From assembly GCA_016874175.1 (NCBI GenBank), contig VGUP01000004.1:1-51201 (forward strand): a DNA stretch of 51,201 nucleotides. The letters are read 5' to 3'. The position numbers were made by a program, and so were the translations under genes. Shown one piece after another: positions 16,703 through 48,889 of the stretch (the first letter of the stretch is position 1; each line of letters begins with the position of its first letter). Below the pieces are notes generated by a model. It made no database searches and was not told where the DNA came from. It saw only the letters and a program-made list of their open reading frames with translations. This DNA comes from Gammaproteobacteria bacterium. Its GTDB lineage: Bacteria; Pseudomonadota; Gammaproteobacteria; Steroidobacterales; Steroidobacteraceae.

Positions 16703-16790
16703 ATCACGCTTGCGCAGCCCCACCCCCGGCGCTAGCATCGACACGGGGTTAGACACTCTTCAGCCTCAGACATCTATCAGGGGGATCACC

Positions 16791-17993: not shown

Positions 17994-17997
17994 CGCC

Positions 17998-31272: not shown

Positions 31273-31280
31273 CGGCGACC

Positions 31281-32186: not shown

Positions 32187-33385
32187 GAATTCTTCGCTCC
32201 ACTCGACGAGCCCGTACTGCTCGATGCACGCAGATTTTCGATGACGGTGACGTTGGCCTGGCCACCGCCCTCGCACATGGTCAACAAGCCGTAACGCCCA
32301 ACGCGGCGCTCGAGTTCACCGAGGAGCGAGGTCATGAGCCGCGCGCCGGTCGCGCCGAGCGGGTGACCGAGTGCAATCGCGCCCCCGTTGACGTTGATTT
32401 TTTGCGGATCGACGCCAAGTTCGCGTTGCCAGGCCAAGACCACCGAGGCGAACGCCTCGTTGATTTCGAAGAGATCGATATCTTCGAGCCGCAGGCCAGA
32501 TTTTTTGAGGGCGTACTGCGTGGCCGGTATCGGCGCCGTCAGCATCCAGACGGGATCGGCCGCGCGCACGCTGAGGTGCACGATACGCGCACGCGGCGCA
32601 AGGCGATGCTCGCGCACTGCCTGTTCCGAAGCAATGAGCAAAGCCGCAGAACAGTCGGCTATTTGACTCGCCACCGCAGCCGTGACCCGACCGCCCGCTT
32701 GCAGGGGTTCGAGGGTCGCCATTTTTTCGAGCGAGGTGCCACGACGCGGTGTCTCATCGCGAGCAAAAGCGCCGACCGGCGAAATCTCGGCGTCGAAGAG
32801 ATCGCCATCGATGGCTGCGATCGCACGTTCGTTGCTGGCGAGCGCAAAGCGCTCCATGTCTAGGCGCGAGATCTGCCACTTCTCGGCAATCATCTCTGCA
32901 GAGCGAAACTGCGAGACTTCCTGATCCCCATAGCGAGCGCGCCAGCCCGGTGAGTCGCGGAATGGATCGCGAAAGCCGAGCGCCTGCCCTGCGATCATGG
33001 CCTGTGAAATCGGGATCAAATTCATCTGCTGCACACCGCCCGCGACCACGAGGTCCTGCGTGCCACTCATGACGCCCTGCGCAGCAAAATGCAGAGCCTG
33101 CTGCGATGAACCGCATTGACGATCGATGGTAGTGCCGGGCACGTGCTCGGGCAGGCCCGCCACCAACCAGCAGGTACGCGCGATATCGCCCGCCTGCGGA
33201 CCGATGGTATCGACACAACCAAAGATCACATCCTCGATCGCCGCAGGATCGACCGCGCTGCGCTGCATGAGCGCTGCGAGCGAATGCGCGCCGAGATCTG
33301 CGGGGTGCATGGTTGCAAGGCTGCCCTTTTTGCGTCCGACTGGAGTGCGAACTGCATCAATGATGTACGCCGTGCTCATGCCCAT
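32183..33385 (-). CDS. fadA6: Thiolase FadA6
   Basis: A 400-residue thiolase. DRQCGSSQQALHF holds the nucleophilic Cys, GGAIALGHPLGATG the catalytic His and MCEGGGQANVT the second Cys, in the CEGGG form used by FadA6 where others have CxGxG. ARAADPVWMLTAPIPAT also matches FadA6 from memory. In the HIP pathway it performs the terminal thiolysis steps. ATG 33385 has GAGG close by; ATG 33379 overlapping the previous stop as ATGA is an alternative. The C-terminus carries a short Ser-rich extension of about 15 residues. Confidence 0.88.
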   Translation of the reverse strand: MGMSTAYIIDAVRTPVGRKKGSLATMHPADLGAHSLAALMQRSAVDPAAIEDVIFGCVDTIGPQAGDIARTCWLVAGLPEHVPGTTIDRQCGSSQQALHFAAQGVMSGTQDLVVAGGVQQMNLIPISQAMIAGQALGFRDPFRDSPGWRARYGDQEVSQFRSAEMIAEKWQISRLDMERFALASNERAIAAIDGDLFDAEISPVGAFARDETPRRGTSLEKMATLEPLQAGGRVTAAVASQIADCSAALLIASEQAVREHRLAPRARIVHLSVRAADPVWMLTAPIPATQYALKKSGLRLEDIDLFEINEAFASVVLAWQRELGVDPQKINVNGGAIALGHPLGATGARLMTSLLGELERRVGRYGLLTMCEGGGQANVTVIENLRASSSTGSSSGAKNS

Positions 33386-34410
33386 TGCGCCTCGAGTTCA
33401 CCGCGCAGCAAACTTTGATGCACGGCAGCAAATTGTGCGGAGCGCCCGCCGTTGAGGCCGGCCAGCGCCCAAGCACGCTTGGCGTAGAACTGCAGATCGA
33501 CTTCCCATGAATAGCCCATGGCACCGTGGACCTGAATAGCGGCCCGCGCAGCACGATCTGCGGCCTCGGCCGCCGCAACGGCCGCATGGGCAACGCGGAC
33601 GGGCGCGAGGGTAGCCGCAGCGGCATAGACCACCGGGCGCGCGAATTCGAGCTTGACCATCACATCGGCCAGCGCATGTTTGACCGCCTGGTTGCTGCCG
33701 ATGGCCTTGCCGAATTGCTTGCGCTCGAGCGAATAAGCCACGGCGATCTCCAGCATCCGTGCCCCAAGCCCGAGCAGCTGCGCAGCATTCAAGACCGTGC
33801 TGCGTGCACGCGCGGCTTGCCATGCGCTGGATGTCGTAGCGCCGGTCACCCTGGCGATGGGCTTAGCGTCGTGCAGCGCAACTTCGCTCAGCCGTCGCAG
33901 CGGATCGACGCTCTCACGGTGAGTCAAAGAAATATCGGACGCACGATACAGCGCGAGTTCGTCATCACGGCGACTGAGCAGCAGGTATTGCGCAAAAGCG
34001 GCGTTGGCAAGCACCGTGGTGCCCGGCGCCGCGCTCAGCACCAGCGCCGAGCCCACCAGCGTCTCTTGCAGCGTACTCTCACCAAGCTCGCCAAGCGTCG
34101 CCAACAAAGGATGCGCAACGCCCTCGACGTCGACCAACGGTTCCGGGAGCGCGGCGCGGCCGGCTTCTTCAGCGAGCAACACGAAATCGACCACTCCGAG
34201 ACCGAGCCCACCCTGCTCTGCAGGTACCAGCGCTCCGGCGAGACCGAGCTCAGCAAGCCGCGCCCGACGTGTGGCACAGGCCGCCTCGAAGGATGGAAGA
34301 TCGCGGGCGTTGGCCGCTCGACGCAGGTCGCTGCCCTGGCAGTGATCGTTCAGCAGTTCGCGCAAAGATTGCGCGGCAAGTCGTTGCTCTTCGTCGAAGG
34401 TGAAGTCCAT
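33376..34410 (-). CDS. Acyl-CoA dehydrogenase, small subunit type
   Basis: A 344-residue acyl-CoA dehydrogenase, shorter than the usual 380-400 because the central beta domain is reduced. LGLAGALVPAEQGGLGLG marks the N-terminal domain; QFGKAIGSNQAVKHALADV and IQVHGAMGYSWEVD mark the C-terminal domain. This architecture fits the partner subunit of heteromeric FadE enzymes such as FadE32/FadE33 or ScdC2. It lies four bases after the full-length acyl-CoA dehydrogenase at 34415, its probable partner. ATG 34410 replaces the track start, which lies deep inside that gene. Confidence 0.83.
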   Translation of the reverse strand: MDFTFDEEQRLAAQSLRELLNDHCQGSDLRRAANARDLPSFEAACATRRARLAELGLAGALVPAEQGGLGLGVVDFVLLAEEAGRAALPEPLVDVEGVAHPLLATLGELGESTLQETLVGSALVLSAAPGTTVLANAAFAQYLLLSRRDDELALYRASDISLTHRESVDPLRRLSEVALHDAKPIARVTGATTSSAWQAARARSTVLNAAQLLGLGARMLEIAVAYSLERKQFGKAIGSNQAVKHALADVMVKLEFARPVVYAAAATLAPVRVAHAAVAAAEAADRAARAAIQVHGAMGYSWEVDLQFYAKRAWALAGLNGGRSAQFAAVHQSLLRGELEAQWA

Positions 34411-34414
34411 GGCT

Positions 34415-35629
34415 TCAGCCTTTGGGCATGCCGAGTACGCGATCGGCAATGATATTGCGCTGGATTTCATTGGCACCCGCGTAGATCGGGCCCGCCAGCG
34501 AAAAGAGAAATCCGTCCATCCAACGCGTGGCTTCGTCTGCGGCCTTTGCGAGAGCAACGCCCTCGACACCGGCAAGACCGCGCAATTCAGCCCGTGCACC
34601 CAGAATGGCCAACGCCGCTCGGTGCATGGAAAGATCAAGCTCAGACCAGAATATTTTGTTGAGGCTGGCTTCGGCGCCGATCGACCCTCCGGCGATCAAT
34701 CGCGAGGCTGTCATGTAGGTCGAGAGCGCGTAGGCCTCGGCATCCATCCAGCACTGGGTGACCGTAGCGGCCACGCCGGGATCGATCGGGGCAGTCTGCT
34801 GCTCCCGCCGAGTCAGTTCCTCCCGCCGATAAAGTTCGATCAGACGCTGTGCGGTGCGCTGAAAACGCGCCGGGCTGCGCAGCATCAAGCCGCGCTCGAA
34901 GCCAGCCGTCGCCATGGCAATCGACCAGCCCCGCCCCTCATCGCCAATACGATTGGCCACCGGGACCCGCGCATTCTCGAAAAAGATCTCCGCGAAACCC
35001 GACTCGCCATCGAGTTGCGGAATGCCACGCACTGTCACACCCGGCGTGCGCAGCGGCACGACAACGTAGGAGAGCCCACGGTGACGCTCCGAGGCGCCAT
35101 CGGTGCGAAACAACCCGAAGCCCCAGTCTGCATAGACTGCGCGCGTCGACCAGATCTTGTGACCGTTGATGACGTAATCGTCGCCGTCGCGAATGGCCGT
35201 CGTGCGCAGCGCGGCAAGATCGGAACCTGCCTGCGGCTCAGACCAGACTTGCGCCCAAATATCCGCGCCGGAGGCAAGCCGCGGCAGGAAGCGGGACTTT
35301 TGTTCCGGCGTGCCGTACTCCATGAGTATAGGGCCGAACAGGAACACTCCGTTCTGATTGACGCGGCCCGGCGCATCGACGCGGTAATACTCTTCTTCGA
35401 AGATCAGCCACTCGATGAGATCGAGCCCGCGGCCGCCGTACTCCTGCGGCCACGTCACCATACTCCAGCGGTCGGAGTGCAGCTTCGTCTCCCAATGACG
35501 ATGCGCCTCGAAACCCTCTGCGGTGTCGTACGACGGCAGCGGCTCACGCGGCACATTCGCCTCCAGCCAAGCGCGAGCTTCGGCGCGCAGCGCGTGCTGT
35601 TTCGGCGTGTATTGCAGATCGATTGCCAT
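34415..35629 (-). CDS. Acyl-CoA dehydrogenase, large subunit type
   Basis: A 404-residue acyl-CoA dehydrogenase. WPQEYGGRGLDLIEW, the QVWSEPQAGSDLAAL beta-domain motif, KIWSTRAVYADW and PIYAGANEIQRNI cover the expected regions. The C-terminal YEG position is YAG. It is adjacent to the small-type subunit at 33376 with a four-base gap, as in FadE31-FadE32 and ScdC1-ScdC2 pairs, so an alpha2-beta2 enzyme acting on a ring C/D thioester is the likely product. The exact substrate cannot be told from sequence. Confidence 0.84.
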   Translation of the reverse strand: MAIDLQYTPKQHALRAEARAWLEANVPREPLPSYDTAEGFEAHRHWETKLHSDRWSMVTWPQEYGGRGLDLIEWLIFEEEYYRVDAPGRVNQNGVFLFGPILMEYGTPEQKSRFLPRLASGADIWAQVWSEPQAGSDLAALRTTAIRDGDDYVINGHKIWSTRAVYADWGFGLFRTDGASERHRGLSYVVVPLRTPGVTVRGIPQLDGESGFAEIFFENARVPVANRIGDEGRGWSIAMATAGFERGLMLRSPARFQRTAQRLIELYRREELTRREQQTAPIDPGVAATVTQCWMDAEAYALSTYMTASRLIAGGSIGAEASLNKIFWSELDLSMHRAALAILGARAELRGLAGVEGVALAKAADEATRWMDGFLFSLAGPIYAGANEIQRNIIADRVLGMPKG

Positions 35630-35647
35630 GCCTGTGCGATCGCACGC

Positions 35648-36397
35648 TCAGAACTTTGCCGCTTCCTTGCCTTCGATGAAGGCATCGCGCGACTTTTGCG
35701 AATCAGGGCTCATGTACATCTCGAGCGTGAACCCCTGCTCAAAGCGGTACGAGCGATCGACATCGGTCGGCTCGATGCCGTTGAGCGATTCTTTGGCGAG
35801 CACCAGCGCGCGGCGACTCTTGGCGGCAATCACGCCGCAAAATTCACGTGCTTTCTCGAGGAGCTCGGCCCGCGGCACCACCTGCTCCACCGCACCAAGC
35901 CGATAAGCCTCGCTCGCCGGACATTTGCCGCCCGTGAAAAAGAGCGCTCGTACTTTGTGAAGCGGCAGCATGCGCGCAAGGTGGGACGCACCGCCCATGG
36001 CGCCGCGGTCGATCTCCGGCAAAGAGAAAAAGGCATTGTCCGCGGCAATGACCACATCGCTTGCGCCACAGATCCCGATGCCGCCACCGATGATGAAGCC
36101 ATGAACCGCAGCCACCACCGGAATCTCGCAGGCGCGCACTGCGCGAAAGGTCAGGTAATTGCCGCGATTGACCTCGACGATACGATCCGGGTGACCTTGT
36201 AATTCTTTGATATCGACGCCGGCGCAAAACCCTTTGCCCTCGCCGCGGATCATCACGCAGCGCACCTCCGGGTTGTGCCCAGTGCGCTTGATGGTTTCGG
36301 CCAGCTCGAGCCAGGTGCGGACATCAAGCGCATTCACCGGCGGATGCGCGAGTACGATCTCGGCCACACGCTCACGAATTTCGACTTTGATCGGCAT
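35648..36397 (-). CDS. echA20: EchA20, C/D-ring opening crotonase
   Basis: A 249-residue crotonase. PPVNALDVRTW, FCAGVDIKELQ (oxyanion hole), GGGIGICGASDVV and PEIDRGAMGGASHL match mycobacterial EchA20, as does the SYRFEQGFTLE C-terminal stretch. EchA20 hydrolytically opens the last ring of HIEC-CoA, so it acts as a C-C hydrolase, not a hydratase. The gene lies one base from the ipdC stop, and in Mycobacterium echA20 also borders the ipdABC genes. Length agrees with the family. Confidence 0.86.
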   Translation of the reverse strand: MPIKVEIRERVAEIVLAHPPVNALDVRTWLELAETIKRTGHNPEVRCVMIRGEGKGFCAGVDIKELQGHPDRIVEVNRGNYLTFRAVRACEIPVVAAVHGFIIGGGIGICGASDVVIAADNAFFSLPEIDRGAMGGASHLARMLPLHKVRALFFTGGKCPASEAYRLGAVEQVVPRAELLEKAREFCGVIAAKSRRALVLAKESLNGIEPTDVDRSYRFEQGFTLEMYMSPDSQKSRDAFIEGKEAAKF

Positions 36398-36398
36398 C

Positions 36399-37466
36399 TC
36401 AGACTCCTGTGCAGAGCTGGCGCAGGCGCGCCTCGGCGTCGTTAACCATGCTGGCGACCAACTCGTCGCAACTCGGCAGATCGCCGAGGATGCCGGCCAC
36501 CATCCCCGTCGACATCACGCCTTCAGAGGGTCGACCCTGAATCATCGAGCGCTCAATCAACACCGGTGAGTTGGCCGCCATCAGCGCCTGTCCGAACGAC
36601 AGCCCACCTTCGCGTTGCATGCCGCGAGCCGCGACCACGAGCTCGCCGAGTTTGGCCCCCGTCAAGCGCTTGAGACGCAGTGCATTGCGTAGGGCACCCA
36701 CCAGCAGGCGCGTCGGGCCGGCGTGTTCGATATCGGCCAAGACCTCGTTGCGGATCAGCCGATGCTGCAAACCATCGAGACGTGTCGTGAGGACAATGTC
36801 ATCAAGCCCCGCAGTGACGTAGCGCTTTTTGGTGACCTCGGGGACGGGACAATCGCGGGTCATAAGGAATCGGGTGCCCATGGCAACCCCTGCCGCCCCG
36901 TAAGCGAGCGCGGCCGCGAGGCCGCGACCATCAAAGAAACCGCCCGCCGCAACCACCGGTACTTTGACGGCATCGAGCACCTGCGGCAGCAGCAACGTGG
37001 TCGGTACCGAGCCCGTGTGACCACCGCCCTCGCCGCCCTGAATGATCAAGACATCGATGCCGATCTGCACCATTTTTTGAGCATGGCGGAGGGCGCCGAC
37101 GGTAGGCATGCAGACGATGCCGGCATCGCGAAAGCGCTTGATCATGACTTTGTCGGGGCCGCGCCCGAAACTTACCGCTTTGACCTTGGCGGCGATGATG
37201 GTGTCGACGATCTGTGCCGCTCCCGGCTGAAACATGTGGAAGTTGACGCCGAACGGACGATCGGTGAGCGAGTGCACCCGATCGATCGCGGGGCCGACTT
37301 CTTTGGCACGCAGCGAGGCGGCCGCAAGAAAGCCGAACGCACCCGCGTTGCAGGATGCCGCAACGAGCTCGGGTCGCGCCACCCAACCCATGGCGGTCTG
37401 CACGATCGGATAGCGGCAGCCGAGCAAGTCGACGAGCGGCGTGTGCAACAGGGTGGTCACACTCAA
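36399..37466 (-). CDS. ipdC: IpdC, flavin-dependent HIP pathway oxidoreductase
   Basis: A 355-residue TIM-barrel flavoprotein of the nitronate monooxygenase/enoyl reductase-like family. PIVQTAMGWVA starts the barrel; IQGGEGGGHTG and VAAGGFFDGRGLAAAL are the FMN-phosphate loops; GAAGVAMGTRFL follows. The combination GWVA and GGFFDGRG is typical of IpdC (Rv3553), known as ScdK in proteobacteria, which acts on a ring C/D CoA thioester before ring opening. Its start overlaps the next gene stop as ATGA. Flanking echA20 and ipdAB support the call. Confidence 0.86.
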   Translation of the reverse strand: MSVTTLLHTPLVDLLGCRYPIVQTAMGWVARPELVAASCNAGAFGFLAAASLRAKEVGPAIDRVHSLTDRPFGVNFHMFQPGAAQIVDTIIAAKVKAVSFGRGPDKVMIKRFRDAGIVCMPTVGALRHAQKMVQIGIDVLIIQGGEGGGHTGSVPTTLLLPQVLDAVKVPVVAAGGFFDGRGLAAALAYGAAGVAMGTRFLMTRDCPVPEVTKKRYVTAGLDDIVLTTRLDGLQHRLIRNEVLADIEHAGPTRLLVGALRNALRLKRLTGAKLGELVVAARGMQREGGLSFGQALMAANSPVLIERSMIQGRPSEGVMSTGMVAGILGDLPSCDELVASMVNDAEARLRQLCTGV

Positions 37467-38365
37467 CCCTCGCGAGTCGGCTTTTCTTTGTTGGCGCTGG
37501 CCATCGATTTGACGTCCATGCCGCCGAGATTATTGCCCATGGTGAGATCACCCTGAGCGTGCGCAAAGTGATGCATGTGGAACACGGCGTCCATCGCCGA
37601 ACGCTTGCCCTGCAAATCTTCGACGTGATTGATCGCCTGCTTGGTGAGCGCAAGCCCGAGCCGCGGCATGCCGGAAATCCGCTCGGCAAGCTGTGTCGTC
37701 GCAGGCTCAAGGTCGGCGCGCGGCACGACGCGGTTGACCATACCCATCTGATAGGCGCGTTCGGCGCTCATGCGCTCGCCGGTGAACAGGAATTCTTTCG
37801 CGATGCGCGGATTGAGCTCGTAAGGATGGGCAAAATATTCGACGCCGGGGATCCCCATGCGCACCACCGGATCTGCGAAATAAGCGTCGTCAGCCGCCAT
37901 GATCAGATCGCAGACCCAGGCCAGCATCAGCCCGCCGGCTATGCAGGCACCGTGCACCATGGCGATGGTGGGCTTCGGCAGCTCGCGCCAGCGCCGACAC
38001 ATGCCGAGATACACCTCTTGCTCGCGTGCGTAAAAATATTCGGCGCCCGGCTTGTTCACGTGGTCGTACCAGAGCGTTTTGCGCTCGGGCCAACTTTTGG
38101 CCACATCGCGCCCGGGCGTGCCGATGTCGTGACCGCCCGAGAAATGCTTGCCCGCGCCGCGCAGCACGATCACTTTGACGGCGTCATCGGTCACCGCCTT
38201 GCGCAAGCAATCATCGATGGCATAAGTCATTTGCGAGTTCTGCGAGTTGGCAAACTCGGGACGATTCAGCGTCAACCACGCCACCGCGCCCCGGGTTTCA
38301 TAGAGCACGGGCGTTTCGGTTTCGTAGCAAATGTCTGCAGTGCGTGGTTCGACGGTTTCGCTCAT
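37463..38365 (-). CDS. Enoyl-CoA hydratase/crotonase
   Basis: A 300-residue crotonase distinct from EchA20. TLNRPEFANSQNSQM, FSGGHDI (oxyanion hole) and ACIAGGLMLAWVCDLIMAADDA are the family hallmarks; HPYELNPRIAKEFLFTGERM follows. It may be the hydratase for an unsaturated ring C/D or side-chain CoA thioester (ScdN/ScdY class). I chose ATG 38365, which has AGGGGAG upstream, over the GTG at 38374 in the track. It lies between ipdB (18-base gap) and ipdC (ATGA overlap), so it belongs to the same operon and step sequence. Confidence 0.82.
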   Translation of the reverse strand: MSETVEPRTADICYETETPVLYETRGAVAWLTLNRPEFANSQNSQMTYAIDDCLRKAVTDDAVKVIVLRGAGKHFSGGHDIGTPGRDVAKSWPERKTLWYDHVNKPGAEYFYAREQEVYLGMCRRWRELPKPTIAMVHGACIAGGLMLAWVCDLIMAADDAYFADPVVRMGIPGVEYFAHPYELNPRIAKEFLFTGERMSAERAYQMGMVNRVVPRADLEPATTQLAERISGMPRLGLALTKQAINHVEDLQGKRSAMDAVFHMHHFAHAQGDLTMGNNLGGMDVKSMASANKEKPTREG

Positions 38366-38383
38366 GCGGGCCACTCCCCTGCG

Positions 38384-39178
38384 TCAGCGCCGGTCGCCCG
38401 GCGGATCACCCTTGAAGACAGTACCGCGCAGGTTGCGCGGATCGAGTCGCTCGCGAATGAGCGCAAGTTGTTCGTCGGTAGGCGCCGGCGTGACCGGGGT
38501 CTCGGCTTGCACGACGATCGGGAAACCCGTCGCCTCTTGCACCTGCGCCACTGTCACGCCCGGATGTCCCGACAACAGACGCACGGCGTGATTCGCCGCG
38601 CCGAAGTCGAGCACACCGAGATCGGTGATCATTCGGCCGATACGCAAGGTCGATGGAACCTTGCCCTCGGGCCAACGCTGCGGGTTGTACCCCGCGCTGC
38701 AGACCATATCGACTTCGCCTGCCACGAACACGCGCGTCGAATGATTGGGCACGAAGATGCTGTTGGCGTGCGAGATGGAATTGCCCGGAAACCCGCGTGC
38801 ACCGAGGATCGCCGCCTTGGGCTTGGTGTAATCGCCGACCACACTGATATTCATTTGACCAAAGCGGTCAACCTGCGCGGGACCGACCAGCGCATGTCTC
38901 CGCCCACCCCAAAGCAGATCAAAGGTGCGCGAATACGGCATCCAGCCTTCAACCAGAGGATCGCGGGCGCGACGGGGACCGAGCGCGACGGGTTCTGCGA
39001 GCAGATAGGCCTCACCGTCGGTCATCAATAAATCGGGATTGAAGCTGAGGCGTGCGAGACCCGCCGCAATGCGCGGGATGACACCGATGCCGGTGGCGAG
39101 CACTTCGCCCTCGCCGCGCCACACTTCGGCGCATTGCGCAATGCAGAGCTCGGCGAGTGTGTAGGAGTGAGTCGTCAT
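38384..39178 (-). CDS. ipdB: IpdB, COCHEA-CoA hydrolase beta subunit
   Basis: A 264-residue CoA-transferase-fold protein. LATGIGVIPRIAAGLARL, LLMTDGEAYL, GPAQVDRFGQMNIS and the FVPNHS then HPGVTV segments match IpdB (Rv3552/ScdL2). IpdAB uses this fold to hydrolyse a C-C bond and open ring C of COCHEA-CoA. ATG 39178 is preferred; the track start is a TTG overlapping the ipdA stop as TTGA, which is also possible. It pairs with ipdA immediately upstream. Confidence 0.88.
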   Translation of the reverse strand: MTTHSYTLAELCIAQCAEVWRGEGEVLATGIGVIPRIAAGLARLSFNPDLLMTDGEAYLLAEPVALGPRRARDPLVEGWMPYSRTFDLLWGGRRHALVGPAQVDRFGQMNISVVGDYTKPKAAILGARGFPGNSISHANSIFVPNHSTRVFVAGEVDMVCSAGYNPQRWPEGKVPSTLRIGRMITDLGVLDFGAANHAVRLLSGHPGVTVAQVQEATGFPIVVQAETPVTPAPTDEQLALIRERLDPRNLRGTVFKGDPPGDRR

Positions 39179-39186
39179 ACCATTGC

Positions 39187-40065
39187 TCAATAAACCGGCG
39201 GCGGAATGCTGTTGATCCGCAAGCGACCGCCCACCGCCGCGACGTAGTCATCGTGGGTGGGCAGATCGACGTAGCGGGCTCGATAGGCCGCCCAGGCCTC
39301 GGAGGTAGTCGCTGCGTTGTATTCTTTGAGGTGATCGATGTCGATACCGTAGCCCGGCACGCCAGCCGTCGGGTGGGCGCCAAAAGGCGCCTCGACCACG
39401 CCGGTGACGACCGAGCGCTCGAAGGGCTGATAACGCGCACGATCGTGATTGCAGATTTTGGTCGTAGCCACGATTTGCTCGCAGCTCAAATAAACACGGT
39501 CGGCGGCTCGTCCCATGAGATCGTCAAAGAAAGGATCGGGACTCAGGATGACACTGTTGCCGCGCTCGTCCGCCTCGGTGACGTGCAGCAGCGCGGCATC
39601 GAGCCGCAACGCGGGCATGGCGACCAAGGTTGAAGCATCGTCATAAGGAGAGCGCACGAGCCGGATGCCCGGATTGCGCACCACGACATCGGTGCCGAGA
39701 CCGACTGGCGTCGGCAAAAATGGCACACGCATCACCGCCGCACGCAGACCGAGCTGCACCATACCCTCATCGAGTTCCATCACTTCGAAGGCCCCCGCCT
39801 GACGTGCATTGCGGAAATGCATGTCGAGCGGCAGCACATCGAGTGACACGAACCCAAAGATCAATTTGCGCAGTTTGCCCGCTGCCGCGAGCAGACCCAC
39901 GTCCGGGCCGCCGTAAGAAACCACGGTCAGATCGCGCAGCGGCGAGCGCATGATTTCGCGCACCAAAGCCATCGGCTTGCGTCGCGTGGCCCAGCCACCG
40001 ATACCGATCGTCATGCCGTCGCGCAATTGAGCGACGACGTCTGCGGCAGTCATTTTTTTGTTCAT
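39187..40065 (-). CDS. ipdA: IpdA, COCHEA-CoA hydrolase alpha subunit
   Basis: A 292-residue CoA-transferase-fold alpha subunit. AQLRDGMTIGIGGWATRRKPMA, VVSYGGPDVGLL and FGFVSLD match IpdA (Rv3551/ScdL1). ELDEGMVQLGL contains the Glu that aligns with the essential catalytic Glu of mycobacterial IpdA. It forms a complex with IpdB to open ring C. The gene is ten bases downstream of hsaC and overlaps or abuts ipdB. Putting ring A/B hsaC directly in front of ring C/D ipdAB fuses the two halves of the pathway into one transcript. Confidence 0.9.
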   Translation of the reverse strand: MNKKMTAADVVAQLRDGMTIGIGGWATRRKPMALVREIMRSPLRDLTVVSYGGPDVGLLAAAGKLRKLIFGFVSLDVLPLDMHFRNARQAGAFEVMELDEGMVQLGLRAAVMRVPFLPTPVGLGTDVVVRNPGIRLVRSPYDDASTLVAMPALRLDAALLHVTEADERGNSVILSPDPFFDDLMGRAADRVYLSCEQIVATTKICNHDRARYQPFERSVVTGVVEAPFGAHPTAGVPGYGIDIDHLKEYNAATTSEAWAAYRARYVDLPTHDDYVAAVGGRLRINSIPPPVY

Positions 40066-40075
40066 GCGGGCGTCT

Positions 40076-40969
40076 TCATGCCGGCGGTGGCGACCACTTG
40101 TGACCCCAGGTGTCGGCGATCAGGCTGCGAGTTGGCACCCAAGTGCTCCAGTCCGGCGTCAGCCCCATGCAGCCGACTTCGAGATCGAAGCCGCCGGGCG
40201 TGGCGACATAGAAGCTGATCATCCCATCATTCGAGTGTCGGCCCAGCGACGAAGAAATGTGATACCCAGCGGCGACACAGCGATCGAGTGCGCGACCGAC
40301 ATCATCGATATCGCGCATCTCGACCATGGTGTGCACGAGGCCCGAGGGCACCGGCATCGGAATGAGCGCGAGACTGTGGTGACGCCGACAGCTCGCGTGC
40401 AGAAAACGGATGCACAGCTCGGGCACGGCAGGATCCGGAGACATCACGAGACGCATCTCGTCGGTGTCACCGAAGCCGAGCAAAGATTTGTAGAAGTCGA
40501 CGCTGCGCTCGAGCTGCGGCGCCGGCAGCACCACATGGCCCGTGCCGAGATCGCCGGTGACGAAACCGGATACGCCCTGCGAAGACATGAACGGGTCGTA
40601 GCCGCGGAAGCGGCCCCAATAAAGTTCGAAGGCGTTACCATCGGGATCGGTGCCTGCCACCAGACCATGGGCGCAACGCGCTTTGAGTTCTACGGCGCTA
40701 CCATCTTGCAGCGCGACGCCGGCGGTGCGCGAACGTTTTACGGTCGCGTTGAATTCGGCCTCGCTCGGCATCTCCCAACCGGCGGCGATAAAACGATCGG
40801 CCTCGCCTTTTTCGATGACGAAGCGGAACGGCCGATCATCGGTCCGCAGCCACAAGCTGCCGTCCGGCGCCTCTGCCGGCATCATGCCGATGACCTCGAC
40901 GCCAAAACGACGCCACGGCGCAAGATCACGCGCCATGACTCGAACGTAACCTAGTGAGTGAACCGCCAT
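40076..40969 (-). CDS. hsaC: 3,4-DHSA extradiol dioxygenase HsaC/TesB
   Basis: A 297-residue type I (vicinal oxygen chelate) extradiol dioxygenase with two beta-alpha-beta module pairs. GTGHVVL (about residue 142), GLVHTMVEM (about 215) and FDLEVGCMG (about 265) supply the 2-His-1-Glu iron site; HSN near 245 is a second-sphere His. It cleaves the aromatised A ring of 3,4-DHSA. It is the first gene of the 17-gene leftward operon, and its ATG is 20 bases before the first obvious promoter-like A/T-rich tract on the minus strand. Family and pathway placement are strong. Confidence 0.9.
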   Translation of the reverse strand: MAVHSLGYVRVMARDLAPWRRFGVEVIGMMPAEAPDGSLWLRTDDRPFRFVIEKGEADRFIAAGWEMPSEAEFNATVKRSRTAGVALQDGSAVELKARCAHGLVAGTDPDGNAFELYWGRFRGYDPFMSSQGVSGFVTGDLGTGHVVLPAPQLERSVDFYKSLLGFGDTDEMRLVMSPDPAVPELCIRFLHASCRRHHSLALIPMPVPSGLVHTMVEMRDIDDVGRALDRCVAAGYHISSSLGRHSNDGMISFYVATPGGFDLEVGCMGLTPDWSTWVPTRSLIADTWGHKWSPPPA

Positions 40970-41189: not shown

Positions 41190-42434
41190 ATGTGGTCCAA
41201 CTCTTCCCTGACCCCGTCGGCCCGCGCCTTCGAGCCGATGCAGCTGGGGCCGATCACCTTGCCCAACCGCTTCGTGAAGGCCGGCACCTACGAGGGCATG
41301 AATTTCGCCAACGGGCCGAGTGCGGCGTTGGTCAAACACCACGTGGATATCGCCCGCGGTGGCGTCGGCATGACGACCCTCGGCTACACAGCCGTTCATC
41401 CGGATGGGCGCACCTTCGAAGAAGAAACCTCCATCGGCACCGACAACGTGGGGCGTTTTCGCGCCCTGACCGATGCCGTGCACGCGGCCGGGGCGCGGGT
41501 CTCGCTGCAACTCGGCCACTGCGGCACGATGACCCGCACGCCCAAGCGCAGCACGCGCAAGCCCCTCGGCCCCTCCAAAACTTTGAACCTCTACGGCGCC
41601 ATGGTGGGCGCCTTGTTCACGAGCGAGATGACGAGCGCCGACATGCAAAATGTCAGCGACCAATTCGTCGCCGCCGCCAATTACGCCGTTGAGGCGGGCT
41701 TCGATGCCATCGAACTGCACATGGGCCACGGCTATCTGCTCAGCCAATTTTTGAGCCCGCTCGCCAACAAACGCAGCGACCAGTACGGTGGTAGCGCGGA
41801 AAATCGTCTGCGTTTTCCGCTAGAGGTGACCGAGCGTGTGCTCGCCGCGGTCGGTGACAAGATCGCGGTCGTCGCCAAGCTCAACTTGCGCGATGGCGTG
41901 CGCTCGGGCGTCGAGATCGCCGATTCCATCAAAACCGCGCAAGCCCTGCAGGCCGCCGGCCTGCATGGTCTCGTGATGACGGGCGGTTTCTCGCCTTATT
42001 CGCCGATGTATCTCTTTCGCGGCAATTCGCCCGTGCCTTCGATGCTACAAACCGAAAAAAGCGGTTGGAACCGTTTTTTGCTCAAACTCGGTGCGAAAAC
42101 GGCCTTTCGCGACACGCCCTTCGAAGAAATGTATTTTTTGAAGCACGCACTGCAGATGCGCGAAGCGGTGACGATGCCACTCGGGCTTTTGGGCGGATTG
42201 CGCAGCGGCGACAACGTCGCCGAAGCCATGCGTGCCGCCTTCGATTTCGTGGTGCTCGGTCGACCGCTCATCTCGCAAGCGGACTTCGTAGCCAGAATCG
42301 CCAAGGACCCAAGCGCACGGTCCAACTGCATCAACTGCAATCGCTGCGTCGCAGAGTTTTCGACGCCGGGTGGCGTACGCTGCGTGCTCGGTGAGCCGAA
42401 TGATCCTGCGCTCAACGCCCGCCCGGCGACCTGA
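41190..42434 (+). CDS. OYE/2,4-dienoyl-CoA reductase-type flavoprotein with Cys cluster
   Basis: A 414-residue NADH:flavin oxidoreductase (old yellow enzyme barrel). LGPITLPNRFVKAGTYEG is the N-terminal family start, HMGHGYLLSQFLSP and NKRSDQYGGS are the FMN and active-site segments, and LGRPLISQADF the phosphate loop. The C-terminus has C-x2-C-x2-C-x11-C, similar to the [4Fe-4S] motif of 2,4-dienoyl-CoA reductase (C-x2-C-x3-C-x11-C), but the flavodoxin/NADPH domains that follow in that enzyme are absent. ATG 41190 is chosen over 41112, which overlaps the half-site. It is transcribed alone and overlaps the convergent SDR by 23 bases. Confidence 0.82.
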   Translation: MWSNSSLTPSARAFEPMQLGPITLPNRFVKAGTYEGMNFANGPSAALVKHHVDIARGGVGMTTLGYTAVHPDGRTFEEETSIGTDNVGRFRALTDAVHAAGARVSLQLGHCGTMTRTPKRSTRKPLGPSKTLNLYGAMVGALFTSEMTSADMQNVSDQFVAAANYAVEAGFDAIELHMGHGYLLSQFLSPLANKRSDQYGGSAENRLRFPLEVTERVLAAVGDKIAVVAKLNLRDGVRSGVEIADSIKTAQALQAAGLHGLVMTGGFSPYSPMYLFRGNSPVPSMLQTEKSGWNRFLLKLGAKTAFRDTPFEEMYFLKHALQMREAVTMPLGLLGGLRSGDNVAEAMRAAFDFVVLGRPLISQADFVARIAKDPSARSNCINCNRCVAEFSTPGGVRCVLGEPNDPALNARPAT

Positions 42435-43287
42435 AGTCGCGGCCGAAATCGAACTCGGGATTTCGACCCTCAAGCATCGCGGCCTGCCGCGCCGGCAATG
42501 CGGCGAGCATTTCCGGATGCGGAAACACCCAGAACCGGCCGCTCTCGATGGCCTCGAAGGTGACGGCCGCCACCTGTTCCGGATGCATGCCCCTTCGGGC
42601 CGTGCCTGCGATCATCGCTTCGCGCATCGCGGCTCCGGCGCCTGCCAGTGGCTCCGCACCCGCCTCGCGGTGCCGCTCGGCTTCAAAGATTCGACTGCGC
42701 ACTGCTCCTGGTGCCAGCAATGAAACTCCGATGGGTGCCTTGGTCGCGGCGAGATCGAGGTAAAGCGTCTCGGCGATCGCCGCAAGCGCAGCCTTGCTCC
42801 CCGAATACGCACCGAGCATGGGCGAAGCAATCAGCCCAGCCATCGAGCCCGTGATCACCACATGAGCTTCACGGCCAGCATCGCGACCGCGCGCCAACAT
42901 GCCGGGGACGCAGGCCCGAATGCCGTTGACGACACCTTTGACGTTGACGTCCAACAACCAGTCGAATTCGCGAGCCGTTTGCTCCCAGAGCCGCCGGGGA
43001 ACGAGTACGCCCGCATTGCAAAAGAGCAGGTCCACTCCGCCCCATTCTCGGGTGATTTCCATCACCCGATTTTCGAAGGCGATGGCGTCACGCACATCGA
43101 GCACGCGCGCCTGGGACGCTGGCGCCCCTGCAGCGAGGCATTCCGCGGCGACTGCCGCCGTGCTCTCGGTCTCGATATCACAGACGAGCACGCGCATACC
43201 ACGCGCTGCCGCGACAAGCGCGAGCGAGCGCCCTATCCCACCCGCCGCGCCCGTGACGAGCGCCGTGCGCCCCGTGAATTCACGCAC
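42412..43287 (-). CDS. SDR oxidoreductase of the Rieske-amidohydrolase module
   Basis: A 291-residue short-chain dehydrogenase. TGAAGGIGRS binds the nucleotide with Asp in VCDIE (NAD preference), CNAGV replaces NNAG, TGSMAGL holds the Ser, and YSGSK the catalytic Tyr and Lys. The C-terminal 60 residues include FPHPEML, often seen in proteobacterial steroid and terpenoid SDRs. GTG 43287 is the start. It is the last gene of the leftward module with the Rieske protein, the amidohydrolase-fold protein and the AMP ligase, so it may oxidise the alcohol made by the Rieske enzyme. Substrate unknown. Confidence 0.82.
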   Translation of the reverse strand: MREFTGRTALVTGAAGGIGRSLALVAAARGMRVLVCDIETESTAAVAAECLAAGAPASQARVLDVRDAIAFENRVMEITREWGGVDLLFCNAGVLVPRRLWEQTAREFDWLLDVNVKGVVNGIRACVPGMLARGRDAGREAHVVITGSMAGLIASPMLGAYSGSKAALAAIAETLYLDLAATKAPIGVSLLAPGAVRSRIFEAERHREAGAEPLAGAGAAMREAMIAGTARRGMHPEQVAAVTFEAIESGRFWVFPHPEMLAALPARQAAMLEGRNPEFDFGRDFRSPGGR

Positions 43288-43322: not shown

Positions 43323-44438
43323 TCAGTTCGCCTTGCGCGCGAAGCTGCGATTGGCGATCGGCGTGCCTTCATCCCGCGGCAGCTCGGCATAGAACTGACG
43401 GTAATACTTGCGGAAGGCCGAGATCGGACCGTCACCGTCGCAGAGCAGCGCATCGTGGGTGTACCGCTGACGATCCCAGACCACCTTGTCCTGATCGAGC
43501 TGACGACAGATATCTTTGACCATCGCTCGCGCCACGCCTGCCGATGGCCCGTCGATGGCTGACTTCAGCTGCGTGAATGCGAATCGTACGTGGGTGCAAT
43601 CCGGTGCGATCGGCGTGATCCCGGCGACCATCAGCGTTTCGCAGATCCCCGCAAAGCGCGTCCAAGCTTGGCCAGCGCCCACCGTGCCATAAGAAATGGT
43701 GCCATCAACGTCACCGCGTGGTGTCGGCATCTTGGCCGCGACGGACGCCACACGACGAATGCCTTCGAACTTGACGTCGTAATTGGGCAGGCTCGCCGTG
43801 CCGTGGATGTAGCGAAAATGCGCCGCATCCACGCCGTTCTCGGCCATGTTTTGCAGTGGCCCATACACGAGCCACTCGTGTTTGTCGTAATCGCTCCACT
43901 CGGGCGAGGCCGCCTCGGGCAGCGCTTCGACCTCAAAAGTGGGCTCGACGTTTTCCGGGTGATACCACGCCCAAATAAAACGATTGCGCTCGACGAGGCG
44001 CCACGGCTTCACGCAGCTGCGCTTGGCCTGTGGCGGGATGACTTTGGCGTAGGGAATCTTCGTGACCTCGCCCTTGCCGTTGTACTGCCAAGAATGGAAC
44101 GGGCACTCGAGATCATTGCCTTGAACGCGCCCGGCATACCCCATGTGGGCGCCGAGGTGACGACAGTAGGCATCAACCATACGCGGCGTGCCGTCCTCGC
44201 CACGCCACAACGCGAGCTCGCGATTGAAATAGCGCAGCGGCTTGACCTCACCCACTTTGAGCTCATCGGAATAGCTGACGACGAACCAGCCAAAGGGCAT
44301 GGGCAAGTCGATGCCGCGATCGGCCGCCGATACGGGTCGGTCGAGCGGCGCCGTGCGCCAAGCGAGCAACTCCTCTTTCGAGAAGCGCGAAAGGTACTGG
44401 CGGGCAGCGGTGTTCGATGGAATGTCTTCGTTGCTCAT
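43323..44438 (-). CDS. Rieske oxygenase, second type
   Basis: A 371-residue Rieske non-heme iron oxygenase. CRHLGAHMGY and CPFHSWQYN bind the [2Fe-2S] cluster; AENGVDAAHFRYIHG supplies Asp and two His for the mononuclear iron. PFGWFVVSYSDEL before the cluster resembles KshA and the DAF-36/Neverland cholesterol-desaturase group more than aromatic dioxygenases. It is clearly different from the KshA at 17998, so it is not a second copy. ATG 44438 overlaps the amidohydrolase stop as ATGA. A hydroxylation or desaturation of a sterol-like substrate is plausible; position unknown. No dedicated reductase nearby. Confidence 0.84.
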   Translation of the reverse strand: MSNEDIPSNTAARQYLSRFSKEELLAWRTAPLDRPVSAADRGIDLPMPFGWFVVSYSDELKVGEVKPLRYFNRELALWRGEDGTPRMVDAYCRHLGAHMGYAGRVQGNDLECPFHSWQYNGKGEVTKIPYAKVIPPQAKRSCVKPWRLVERNRFIWAWYHPENVEPTFEVEALPEAASPEWSDYDKHEWLVYGPLQNMAENGVDAAHFRYIHGTASLPNYDVKFEGIRRVASVAAKMPTPRGDVDGTISYGTVGAGQAWTRFAGICETLMVAGITPIAPDCTHVRFAFTQLKSAIDGPSAGVARAMVKDICRQLDQDKVVWDRQRYTHDALLCDGDGPISAFRKYYRQFYAELPRDEGTPIANRSFARKAN

Positions 44439-45313
44439 GACGGCGGACCTCCGAACAGACGGGCGGCATTTTCGTAAAGGAATTTCGGCCACACTGAATC
44501 TTTGAACGGCACATCGGGCAGTTCGCGAAAGATACGCTCGAGCGACAAGCCCATGGGCCAATACCCGGCGTACATGATCCGATCAGCCCCGCGCGTGTTG
44601 GCGTAATCGATGATGGCCTTCGGATAATGTTTGGGTGCAAAGGCACTGGTGGAATAAAAGAGATTCGGCCATTTGAGCATCAGCTTGACGGCGAGATCCT
44701 CCCAAGGCTCGGCCCCGTGACGCATCACGAACTTCAGCTCCGGGAAAAACCAGCAGACTTCATCAACAAGCTCAGCGTGTTGCGGCGCCATCGGTAATCG
44801 CGGCCCCGGTACACCGACGTTCACGAACACCGGCAAATCGAGATCCACGCAGGTCGCGTAGATCGGATAAACCTTTTTGTCATTGATGGGCACCTGCGGG
44901 TTGTTGCCGCAGGGAAAGAAACTGACCGCGTGTATGTGGCCGGCAGCCTTCAAGCGACGTATTTCACGCACATCATCCATCCCTTTGTTGGGATTGACGT
45001 GATAATCAAAGATAAAGCGATCCGGGTAAACCTCGCGCGCCCGCTTGATGCCGGCCGACCCCTCCCAATAGCCGACCATGGCGCGCGCGATGTGATAGCG
45101 ATCCATCTGCGCGACCGTGTAGTCAATATAGTCGGAATCGGTGGGCAGCACCGGGATATCTTTGAACATGTACTGCGCCGGCATCTTGAACGCCTCGCGG
45201 CTCTCGCGATCGAGTAGCAGCGGCAGATAGGGCGTGTACCACTCGGTATTGGTGGTACTGACCGGTATCCCCAACATCAGATCAATGACTTTGGCGCCCT
45301 GCGGAAACCCCAT
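44435..45313 (-). CDS. Amidohydrolase-fold protein (PF04909) lacking metal ligands
   Basis: A 292-residue protein of the amidohydrolase_2/ACMSD family by overall pattern (Y-x-L-P-I-x-A-type core, VNVGVPGPR, MRHGAEPW, RIMYAGYWP). The N-terminal metal site H-x-H is replaced by VIDLMLG, and the later catalytic Asp of the usual GSDYP is replaced by AGYWP; only the His of RHGAEPW remains. The protein is full length and in frame, so this is not a pseudogene. It may be a metal-free hydrolase/decarboxylase or a binding protein. Start ATG 45313 is 27 bases after the ligase stop. Confidence 0.72.
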   Translation of the reverse strand: MGFPQGAKVIDLMLGIPVSTTNTEWYTPYLPLLLDRESREAFKMPAQYMFKDIPVLPTDSDYIDYTVAQMDRYHIARAMVGYWEGSAGIKRAREVYPDRFIFDYHVNPNKGMDDVREIRRLKAAGHIHAVSFFPCGNNPQVPINDKKVYPIYATCVDLDLPVFVNVGVPGPRLPMAPQHAELVDEVCWFFPELKFVMRHGAEPWEDLAVKLMLKWPNLFYSTSAFAPKHYPKAIIDYANTRGADRIMYAGYWPMGLSLERIFRELPDVPFKDSVWPKFLYENAARLFGGPPS

Positions 45314-45340: not shown

Positions 45341-47062
45341 TTACGATGCGCTGTATCGACGGCGCAGTTGTACCTTGTCGACCTTGTCGAGATGGTTGCG
45401 CGGCAAAGCTTCGTGCTGAACCAAAACTTCGGTGGGCACCTTGTAGGCCGCCAAGTGCGCCGCAACATGCTGCTTCACCTCATCGCCGGTAATGAGCCCC
45501 GCCGAGGCATGAGGTTCGACGATCGCCATCAGACGCTCGCCGAGTCGGGAATCTGGCACGCCAAAAGCCACCGCTTCCGCGAGACCCGGATGTGCGAGCA
45601 GTACCCGCTCGACCTCGGCGCAATAAATATTCTCGCCCGCAGAGATCACCATGTCCTTCTTGCGATCGACAATATAAAGGAAACCGTCGGCATCGAGATA
45701 GCCGATATCACCCGAGCGCATGAAGCCTTCGTTGTCGAAGGCGCGCGCTGTCTCCTCGCGATCGCCCCAGTACTCGAGCATGTTTGAAACCGACCGCATG
45801 CAGATCTCGCCCGCTTCGCCCGGCGCGGCGAGGCTGCCGTCTTCAAGCACGATTTTGACGAGTGTCGTGTCGAGCATCCGCCCGGCGGTCCCCGGATGCG
45901 CGAGATATTCTTCGCCCACCGACATGGCCACCGCACCCGTGGTTTCAGTCATGCCGAACCCGGTGCCGGGTACGGCATGCGGGAACGCTTTAGCGATTTC
46001 GCTGAGCATGCCCGCCTGCAAGGCCTGACCGCCCGTCGAGACGCTGGTCAAAGATTTGAGATCGTACTGCGAAATATTTGGCGAACGCAGCAGGTCCCAC
46101 ATCATGGTCGGCACACACGGAAACTGCGTCACTTTCTCGGTTTCGATAAGCTGCAATGCCGCAGCCGCATCCCACCGCCGCATCAAGACAATCTTGCCGC
46201 CGCGCACCAGCGTCGATAGCAGGCCGGTGTGCAGACCGCTGGTGTGAAAGAACGGGAACATGAGCAGCATGCAGGTCTGCGGTGACATGGCCGCAAGCTG
46301 CTCGAGCGTCATGCCGTAGCGGGCCGCCATGTTAGCAGCGATGCGGTACCCGGCATAGAGATTGGTCCACACCGAATTGCTCGTGCCCCAGTGACTGAGC
46401 ACCGCACCCTTCGCGCGACCGGTGGTCCCAGAAGTAAACAGGATGGTCGCAGGATCGAGGGGCTCGACCGACGGCGCGGCCGGGCCGGCATTCGCGGGAG
46501 CTTCGGCCAGCAGATCGGCAAGGCGCACGGCCCCCGCAGCGACCGCCGCATCGATCACGGCAAATTCGCGCTGCCGATCATCACCGCTCAAAGAATCATC
46601 CGCCGCCACCATGAGCGGACAGGTGGCAGGATGAGTCGCGAGCTCTCGCGCGCAGCGGCTGTCCGTGATCAGCAGTGAAACCCCGGTGCCATCGCGCGCC
46701 GCCGCGAGCTCATCGCCTGAAGCGCGACTGTTCATCGCCACTGGGATGGCGCCAAGGCGGACGAGCGCCAAAAACGCGTACACCCACTCCGGCAGGTTAC
46801 GCATGGCGAGTCCGACACGACTCCCCGCCCCGATCGAGCAGTGTGACTGCAGGGCGTACGCGAGACGATCGACGGTAGAGGACAAATCGCGGTAGCTCAG
46901 CCGCAACGGGCCGTAGACGATGGCAATAGCGTCCGAATTCCAGGGGACAGCCTTGAGCAGCGCCGGCAGAGTCCGGGGCGCACGACTGAACACGCGGCAG
47001 CGGTAGCCGCGAACCAGCTCTTCGACGAGCTCGAATTGCCCTTCCGTTGACACCCCGACCAC
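45341..47062 (-). CDS. AMP-dependent acyl-CoA ligase
   Basis: A 573-residue ANL-family ligase. ILFTSGTTGRAKGAVLSH is the ATP loop, GFGMTETTGA the A5 motif, IVDRKKDMVISAGENIYCAE the hinge, and the C-terminal Lys is in LDKVDKVQLRR. FadD-like with an N-terminal extension of about 25 residues. GTG 47062 or GTG 47053 start; neither is decisive. It is the first gene of the leftward module (ligase, amidohydrolase-fold, Rieske, SDR) downstream of operator D, so it probably activates an acid whose CoA ester is then handled by the module. Substrate unknown. Confidence 0.84.
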   Translation of the reverse strand: MVGVSTEGQFELVEELVRGYRCRVFSRAPRTLPALLKAVPWNSDAIAIVYGPLRLSYRDLSSTVDRLAYALQSHCSIGAGSRVGLAMRNLPEWVYAFLALVRLGAIPVAMNSRASGDELAAARDGTGVSLLITDSRCARELATHPATCPLMVAADDSLSGDDRQREFAVIDAAVAAGAVRLADLLAEAPANAGPAAPSVEPLDPATILFTSGTTGRAKGAVLSHWGTSNSVWTNLYAGYRIAANMAARYGMTLEQLAAMSPQTCMLLMFPFFHTSGLHTGLLSTLVRGGKIVLMRRWDAAAALQLIETEKVTQFPCVPTMMWDLLRSPNISQYDLKSLTSVSTGGQALQAGMLSEIAKAFPHAVPGTGFGMTETTGAVAMSVGEEYLAHPGTAGRMLDTTLVKIVLEDGSLAAPGEAGEICMRSVSNMLEYWGDREETARAFDNEGFMRSGDIGYLDADGFLYIVDRKKDMVISAGENIYCAEVERVLLAHPGLAEAVAFGVPDSRLGERLMAIVEPHASAGLITGDEVKQHVAAHLAAYKVPTEVLVQHEALPRNHLDKVDKVQLRRRYSAS

Positions 47063-47213: not shown

Positions 47214-47990
47214 ATGGGTCGTCTTGCCGGTCGAGTTGCCCTCATAACCGGGGCCAGTCAAGGAATTGGGGCCGCTATCGCAGCGCGCTTTGCCGCCGAG
47301 GGTGCGCATGTCGCCCTTTGCGCACGTCGCGCCGAACCACTCGAGGCCAGGGCGGCCGCCATTCGGGCGAGCGGCGGCTCGGTCAGCCAGCGCGCCTTCG
47401 ATGTCGCGGACCACGCGGCGCTCGCCGATTTCGTCGCTACGACGGCTGCGCAGCACGGGCGGCTCGACGTGTTGGTCAATAACGCGCCGTCGGTCACCTA
47501 CTCGGCGATCGTCGACATGACCCCGGAAAGTTTTCGTAAAGATTTCGAGGTCAACGTCAACTCGGCTTTTGTCGCCACGCGTGAAGCGTTCAAGGTGATG
47601 CTGCCCGCGCAGCGCGGCTCGATCATCAATATTTCTTCGATCAACGGGCTCTTAGGGCTCGGTAACATGTCGGCCTACGGCGCGGCCAAAGCCGCTCTTA
47701 TCCACTTCACCAAATGTGCCGCCATGGAGGGTGCTCGCGCCAATGTTCGCGTCAATGCGATCGCGCCGGGTGTCATCAATACGCCGGCGACCGTAGCAGG
47801 CTTTGCGGGACCCTACGCAGACTGGGGCAAGAAGATCGCGAGTCAAGTACCGATGGGTCGCTTCGGCGAAGCCCATGAAATCGCCGGCGTCGCGCTATTT
47901 TTGGCCAGCGACGACTCGGCCTATGTCACCGCGACCTGTATTTCGGCAGATGGCGGCAAAGCGGCAGAACTCGTCGTCCCTCCGCCCTAA
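47214..47990 (+). CDS. SDR oxidoreductase
   Basis: A 258-residue short-chain dehydrogenase. TGASQGIGAA binds the nucleotide with ARR after strand 2 (NADP preference likely). NNAG is NNAP here, which is uncommon. SSING holds the Ser and YGAAK the catalytic pair. GGGGGTG precedes the ATG. It is the first gene of the rightward pair after operator D, followed 71 bases later by another SDR. Substrate unknown; a hydroxy- or ketosteroid acid is the likely class. Confidence 0.82.
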   Translation: MGRLAGRVALITGASQGIGAAIAARFAAEGAHVALCARRAEPLEARAAAIRASGGSVSQRAFDVADHAALADFVATTAAQHGRLDVLVNNAPSVTYSAIVDMTPESFRKDFEVNVNSAFVATREAFKVMLPAQRGSIINISSINGLLGLGNMSAYGAAKAALIHFTKCAAMEGARANVRVNAIAPGVINTPATVAGFAGPYADWGKKIASQVPMGRFGEAHEIAGVALFLASDDSAYVTATCISADGGKAAELVVPPP

Positions 47991-48061: not shown

Positions 48062-48889
48062 ATGTCACTTTCAGGCAAGGCAGCTTTGGTTACTGGCGCG
48101 GGTCAGGGCATCGGGCGCGCTTGCGCACTTGCCCTCGCCGAAGCCGGCGCACGAGTCGCCGTTTTTGATCTCAAGCAGGAATCCGCTGACGCCACCGTCG
48201 CCACGCTGCCGAATCCCACCGCGCACTTGGCGATTGCCGGCAACGTAGCCGACAGCGCTGCGGTCAAAGCCGCTTTTGCGCAAGCCGTGGCGGCGTTTGG
48301 GCGGCTCGATGTGCTCGTCAATAATGCCGGCACCGGCACTGGCCCGAACGACGGTAGCGCCAAAATGTACGAGCTGATGGCGCAGCGTAACGCCGAACTC
48401 GCGCGTGGCGAAACACCCAAGACCCATGTCGAGCAAACCGTCTTCATGGAAGACGAAGGCTGGCGCGCGGTGATGGCTGTCAATCTCGACGGTGCTTTCT
48501 TTTGCGCGCGCGAGGCGCTGCGCGTTATGGCCGAAAAAAACATCAAGGGCTCGATCATCAATATCGCCTCCACGGCCGTGCAGTCGGGCGAAGGTCCCGT
48601 GCACTACGTCACCAGCAAGGCAGCGCTAGTCGGCATGACCCGCGCCCTCGCCCGCGAAGTCGCCTCACGCGGCATCCGTATCAATGCCGTGGCCCCCGGC
48701 CCCACCGACACCCCGCTCATGCGCTCCATTCCCGACGAATGGATTGCAAGCCTCGAAAAAGCCATCCCACTCGGCCGTCTCGCGAAGCCTGCCGAAGTTG
48801 CGGCAGCCGTACGCTTTCTCGCGAGTGACGAGGCCTCGTACGTGACCGGCAGTGTGCTGGTCGCCAACGGCGGCTCGTATTTCTTTTAA
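48062..48889 (+). CDS. SDR oxidoreductase with extended loop
   Basis: A 275-residue short-chain dehydrogenase. TGAGQGIGRA binds the nucleotide with Asp in VFDLK (NAD). NNAG is followed by an insertion of about 25 residues (rich in Gly, Glu and Lys, PNDGSAKMYEL onward) before the usual W-x-x-V-x-x-VNL segment. IASTAVQ holds Ser and YVTSK the catalytic Tyr and Lys. GAGG precedes the ATG. The loop would lie near the active site. Second gene of the operator D rightward unit; it ends 73 bases before the acyl-CoA dehydrogenase remnant. Confidence 0.83.
   Translation: MSLSGKAALVTGAGQGIGRACALALAEAGARVAVFDLKQESADATVATLPNPTAHLAIAGNVADSAAVKAAFAQAVAAFGRLDVLVNNAGTGTGPNDGSAKMYELMAQRNAELARGETPKTHVEQTVFMEDEGWRAVMAVNLDGAFFCAREALRVMAEKNIKGSIINIASTAVQSGEGPVHYVTSKAALVGMTRALAREVASRGIRINAVAPGPTDTPLMRSIPDEWIASLEKAIPLGRLAKPAEVAAAVRFLASDEASYVTGSVLVANGGSYFF

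Follow-up and report, generated by a model that had tools for sequence, protein, structure and literature searches.

A metal-less clade of amidohydrolase-fold proteins in steroid catabolic clusters, frequently encoded beside a Rieske oxygenase

Introduction

A metal site is the defining feature of the amidohydrolase superfamily, and this raises the question of what a protein of this fold might do once that site is gone. We address it here for a gene located in a 51,201-nt stretch of DNA from a gammaproteobacterium of the Steroidobacteraceae (contig VGUP01000004.1 of assembly GCA_016874175.1), hereafter referred to as the window. A preliminary description of this locus had proposed that an intact gene, translationally coupled to that of a Rieske protein, encodes an amidohydrolase-fold protein devoid of its metal site, and had envisaged either a metal-independent enzyme or a scaffold for the Rieske partner. 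Within the superfamily, LigI (2-pyrone-4,6-dicarboxylate lactonase, cog3618) is an enzyme that works without a divalent metal, yet it keeps the His and Asp residues of the metal site that have disappeared from the window protein.

Results

The open reading frame at 44435-45313 of the reverse strand is real and intact, and its 292-aa product begins MGFPQGAKVIDLMLGIP. It matched the Pfam profile PF04909 (Amidohydro_2) with 76.6 bits against a curated cut-off of 26.4 (E 3.6e-21), although the alignment spans only profile positions 34-288, that is, it starts after the H-x-H segment, which remained unmatched. AlphaFold2 modeling with 50 relatives confidently rendered a (beta/alpha)8 TIM barrel of the amidohydrolase type (pLDDT 91.4, pTM 0.90), in keeping with the fold assigned beforehand. 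The PDB neighbors of this model were amidohydrolase-superfamily barrels, headed by BB4693 (3irs) and followed by 2,6-dihydroxybenzoate decarboxylase, 5-carboxyvanillate decarboxylase, LigJ, and ACMSD; besides LigJ, many of these matches act on C-C bonds, namely both decarboxylases and ACMSD. The fold matches also include 4i6k, which we take to be a probable LigI homologue. No NCBIfam family matched either the 292-aa protein or its sister groups.

For inspection of the metal site, the window protein was aligned with members of its clade (one side of a branch supported at 100/100), with sister groups lacking H-x-H, and with canonical relatives of the same phylum, resulting in a site table of 149 family sequences that includes 119 clade members and 22 canonical ones. 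ACMSD provided the reference numbering, with His9, His11, His177, and Asp294 as zinc ligands, whereas His228 does not bind the metal and contributes to catalysis by activating the water held on it (PMC11650718, PMC6362003). The window protein has the fold, the length, the strand-6 catalytic His, and the frame of the C-terminal strand-8 motif in common with PF04909 enzymes (ACMSD, LigJ, and the 2,6-dihydroxybenzoate and 5-carboxyvanillate decarboxylases), but H-x-H, the strand-5 His, and the strand-8 Asp are all replaced. Indeed, the five site positions read H, H, H, H, D in 22/22 canonical relatives and M13, G15, N165, H199, Y251 in the window protein. The motifs VIDLMLG and AGYWP occupy the metal-site places exactly as first described. 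On the reverse strand, D11-L-M-L-G15 (45269..45283) stands for the D-x-H-x-H of strand 1, the codon at 44819..44821 specifies N165 at the position of ACMSD His177 on strand 5, and that at 44561..44563 specifies Tyr251 in place of the strand-8 metal Asp. The His of RHGAEPW, formerly regarded as the one retained residue of the metal site, is present (His199, codon 44717..44719) but aligns with the strand-6 residue His228, a catalytic second-shell His and not a ligand. The middle metal ligand is a strand-5 His, replaced by N165 in this protein; none of the four ligands remains, and the loss is thus more complete than originally stated.

This loss extends to 119/119 clade members, which belong to Pseudomonadota, Actinomycetota, and Myxococcota. 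H-x-H is absent from all 118 members having the region; position 13 is Met in 106 clade members, with Met, Ala, Leu, and Phe as the replacements across the clade and a lone His in one member. Position 15 is mostly Gly (Gly/Asn/Ala/Asp/Gln, with Asp in five), position 165 is Asn in 88, Cys in 19, Thr in 11, and Tyr in 1, and position 251 is Tyr in the 118 sequences with this column. A search for other His or Asp residues at the site positions retrieved none that is conserved, the lone His13 (1/119) and the five Asp15 being the only instances. On the other hand, R198, H199, G200, E202, K210, K214, and Y220 are invariant in the 119 sequences, so that a polar R198-H199-G200-x-E202 stretch plus Y251 characterizes the clade; H199, also kept in the canonical outgroup, is its sole conserved His. 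Comparison with three relatives further yielded dN/dS values of 0.058, 0.032, and 0.035, each below that of the neighboring FadD gene, which shows that purifying selection on the gene is strong. A loss shared by 119 clade members and dN/dS of 0.03-0.06 rule out a one-off event or decay, as had been argued from the intact gene.

Relatives outside the clade display other states of the site. One sister group has D-x-W-x-Q, a strand-5 Gln, and a strand-8 Asn, and another has D-x-V and a strand-5 Gln with the strand-8 Asp kept; the deep branching around the clade has only moderate support (92/85). These states fit an order in which H-x-H and the strand-5 His would have been lost first and the Asp replaced by Tyr last. 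A paralogue of the D-x-V type in the same genome (L002, G000:C37:12959-13558) has likewise lost H-x-H and the strand-5 His while keeping the strand-8 Asp, and a Mycobacterium branderi plasmid protein (L119:5701-6594) carries Trp/Asn at H-x-H and Asn on strand 5, with His199 and the Asp kept. The gene cluster around the latter holds P450, thiolase, and Zn-ribbon OB-fold genes. The closest solved structure by both sequence and fold, the uncharacterized BB4693 of Bordetella bronchiseptica (PDB 3irs/3k4w), also misses two ligands, having Met on strand 5 and Ala on strand 8. However, it is only ~24% identical to the window protein and resembles a separate IIDFRLRPP-type group, which has no Tyr251 and may represent an independent loss of the site.

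The gene is the central one of a conserved FadD-amidohydrolase-Rieske operon, the usual order in Proteobacteria. Upstream lies a FadD acyl-CoA synthetase gene (45341..47062, reverse strand), whose best NCBIfam match is the steroid-24-oyl-CoA synthetase CasG, far below cut-off; downstream, a KshA-related Rieske oxygenase gene (43323..44438, reverse strand) retains intact CxH/CxxH and E-x3-D-x2-H-x4-H motifs. The Rieske ATG overlaps the amidohydrolase TGA (ATGA, 44435-44438), which substantiates the translational coupling proposed earlier. The operon is flanked by SDR genes, one downstream of the Rieske gene and kept in several close relatives (42412..43287, reverse strand), and two divergent ones kept in many relatives (47214..47990 and 48062..48889, forward strand). 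A Rieske gene adjoins the clade member in 59 sampled loci, 55 times downstream and four times upstream. The 2Fe-2S motif is present in 55/55 linked Rieske proteins, and the mononuclear-iron motif was checked and found in that of the window. In the tree, the linked proteins split at 100/100 from KshA, including the full KshA encoded in the window itself (17998-19074, forward strand). Sphingomonad operons often go on with an amidase gene (N. aromaticivorans pNL2, Novosphingobium sp. ES2-1 p1, Sphingobium TomTYG65) and in other cases with acyl-CoA dehydrogenase genes. No Rieske gene was found in the fetched flanks of many clade members, for example those of Actinomycetota and Endozoicomonas.

The window constitutes a gene cluster for steroid catabolism. 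Its ring-degradation genes (28919..40969, reverse strand) specify acyl-CoA dehydrogenases, including IpdE2-like ones, a steroid-type thiolase, enoyl-CoA hydratases, a FabK/NMO-type protein that is IpdC-like by position, an IpdA/B-like CoA-transferase pair whose B partner is assigned by position only, and an HsaC-like extradiol dioxygenase. A further block (13122..19074) comprises, besides the forward-strand KshA gene, reverse-strand genes for a 3-ketosteroid delta1-dehydrogenase (13122-14840), an FAA hydrolase (14870-15703), and an HsaD/BphD-like alpha/beta hydrolase (15684-16460; 144 bits, short of the curated threshold). Co-occurrence was scored within one sphingomonad-type family (251 genomes), where a strong KshA match (>150 bits) was found in 23/29 genomes with the gene versus 6/222 without it (p 9e-22); for any KshA_C match the figures are 28/29 versus 11/222, but the linked Rieske protein itself then counts. 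The metal-less group is an old and widespread subfamily tied to steroid catabolism, something that the preliminary description did not foresee.

Other arrangements occur across the clade. At loci L035, L037, L041, and L043, the clade member is directly followed by genes for an HsaA-like oxygenase of the acyl-CoA dehydrogenase type and an HsaC-like extradiol dioxygenase; in L035 and L041, the opposite strand bears a KstD-like gene. This order brought up replacement of HsaD by the clade member, a possibility weakened by the HsaD/BphD-like hydrolase of the window, with due regard to its sub-threshold score. Five loci from Acidimicrobiia/Actinomycetota (L044, L045, L047, L048, and L054) carry two or three tandem metal-less copies and no nearby Rieske gene, one paralogue type having Ala13 and Thr165. 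In one Acidimicrobiales genome, a class II aldolase gene lies immediately upstream of a clade member (L066:1861-3501), and L074 has a similar order. In Yinghuangia and Embleya (L058, L059, L076, and L077), the clade member is found near a squalene-hopene cyclase gene, hinting at a triterpenoid rather than a sterol substrate in these bacteria.

A link to published bile-salt clusters emerged from the sphingomonad locus L164, with the order MFS transporter-TetR-clade member-Rieske-acyl-CoA dehydrogenase-acyl-CoA dehydrogenase-CoA ligase-MaoC hydratase-alpha/beta hydrolase. Sequence alone identified the transporter, TetR, and the final hydrolase, whereas the assignment of MaoC and one dehydrogenase comes from Pfam matches in the sister locus L165. 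The same nine-gene order recurs in Caenibius tardaugens as the bsd I cluster (EGO55_16295-16335), which is induced by cholate; its amidohydrolase, EGO55_16305, is ~21-fold up on cholate and has been suggested to hydrolyze conjugated bile salts (PMC12882949). From this gene order, and not from the sequence of EGO55_16305, we infer that the latter is the counterpart of the L164 clade member. It is L164 and not the window, with its FadD-amidohydrolase-Rieske arrangement, that has the bsd I gene order; compared with the side-chain cluster of C. tardaugens and Sphingobium Chol11, the window has FadD directly upstream and lacks the paired acyl-CoA dehydrogenase-MaoC genes. In Chol11, SclA is Nov2c230, the demonstrated amidase Bsa is Nov2c227, and Nov2c228 is a Rieske monooxygenase believed to carry out a hydroxylation needed to degrade the side chain; side-chain removal in this type of pathway is described as 'largely unknown' and lacks homologues of the usual aldolases and thiolase (PMC8399759, PMC12175502). 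Given the sphingomonad order FadD-amidohydrolase-Rieske-amidase, Nov2c229 is predicted to be a clade member. Our literature search found nothing usable on Nov2c229 or on metal-independent amidohydrolases.

Discussion

The family-wide loss of metal residues, the strong conservation, and the adjoining gene for a steroid-hydroxylating enzyme together make it probable that the 292-aa protein is an enzyme working without metal in some step of steroid breakdown. The reading we favor, and consider on balance likely, is that of a metal-independent acid/base catalyst of amidohydrolase fold acting in series with the Rieske oxygenase of the adjoining gene, whose product it would cleave or rearrange. FadD would activate a steroid carboxylic acid as its CoA thioester, hydroxylation by the Rieske oxygenase would come next, and the amidohydrolase-fold protein would then cleave the hydroxylated product in a retro-aldol or retro-Claisen type of reaction, or rearrange it, using His199 with Arg198, Glu202, and Tyr251 in place of a metal-bound water. 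The invariant strand-6 Arg-His-x-x-Glu and the Tyr at the place of the metal Asp appear suited to acid/base catalysis, whereas hydrolysis through metal-activated water is unlikely because the metal site is gone. We infer that the protein is catalytic, with a hydroxylated steroid side-chain CoA ester as substrate and C-C cleavage as chemistry; it is perhaps a retro-aldol or retro-Claisen lyase of CoA-activated steroid side chains. The analogy is with CouO and HpeF, Rhodococcus beta-ketoacyl-CoA hydrolases of the amidohydrolase superfamily that take acetyl-CoA off a CoA-activated side chain (PMC4737184, PMC9618137); both act on aromatic substrates and are likened to the window protein by chemistry and superfamily, not by sequence. 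Placed after the Rieske step, a C-C lyase resembling CouO would close the recognized gap in the pathway. The most far-reaching version of this proposal is speculative: a stepwise, clade-wide loss of the metal center would have produced a C-C lyase that needs no metal and relies on an R198-H199-E202-Y251 site. Paired with a KshA-like Rieske hydroxylase dedicated to it, this lyase would account for a removal of steroid side chains independent of aldolase and thiolase, the missing step of bile-salt degradation in sphingomonads.

The same polar site, bereft of metal ligands, would serve equally well an enzyme of the same pathway that, without metal and without breaking a C-C bond, isomerizes, tautomerizes, or (de)hydrates a steroid intermediate. 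ACMSD, of the same fold, tautomerizes oxaloacetate even as the H228A variant, and in some clusters the gene is already found together with those for a MaoC hydratase and acyl-CoA dehydrogenases. Nonetheless, what the known pathway lacks is a step that cleaves a C-C bond, and several C-C bond enzymes rank among the best superfamily matches by fold, which makes this alternative a rather doubtful one. A non-catalytic role as a scaffold or stabilizer of the Rieske oxygenase, the second possibility raised initially, would account for the overlapping adjacent genes, the separate clade of linked Rieske proteins, and the lost metal site. Such a pseudoenzyme is nevertheless unlikely, since 119 sequences all keep the polar residues of what was once the active site and many clade members occur without a Rieske gene in the flanks fetched, such as the Acidimicrobiia tandem copies and that of Endozoicomonas; of the two options first put forward, the evidence thus favors an enzyme over a pure scaffold.

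A further possibility is that the protein still binds a metal, now through other ligands that might include H199 and E202. Both residues are invariant and close in sequence, but H199 is the only conserved His, and the ligand positions of strands 1, 5, and 8 have no conserved His, Asp, Glu, or Cys; alternative coordination was therefore rejected and strikes us as very unlikely, if slightly less so than hydrolysis of the amide bond in glyco- or tauro-conjugated bile salts. The latter, a published suggestion for C. tardaugens EGO55_16305, draws on the family name and on cholate induction. However, every residue for metal activation of water is gone, a separate amidase-family protein is encoded beside the Rieske protein in the same sphingomonad operons, and Chol11 already possesses Bsa, so that we give this role hardly any credence.

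The fold, metal-free activity in the superfamily (LigI), and a solved relative lacking at least two ligands (3irs) were already known, whereas the literature searched appears to contain no description of the metal-less clade, of its partnership with a Rieske protein, or of its steroid setting. A large conserved subfamily with every ligand replaced, flanked by relatives at intermediate states, constitutes a natural experiment on how enzyme chemistry changes. Its genes sit in steroid operons whose side-chain C-C cleavage is openly called unknown, and a specific, testable gene can therefore be named for this step. The analysis also corrects the automatic label 'amidohydrolase', from which the proposed role in amide hydrolysis derives.

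The substrate may differ from, or be broader than, side chains, because some clade members lack a Rieske neighbor, namely those with HsaA/HsaC-like neighbors, the tandem copies of Acidimicrobiia, and those near squalene-hopene cyclase genes in Embleya and Yinghuangia. As a minor observation, loci L004, L048, and L071 carry steroid-type genes in MAGs labeled Klebsiella pneumoniae or Bifidobacterium breve, labels that look wrong.
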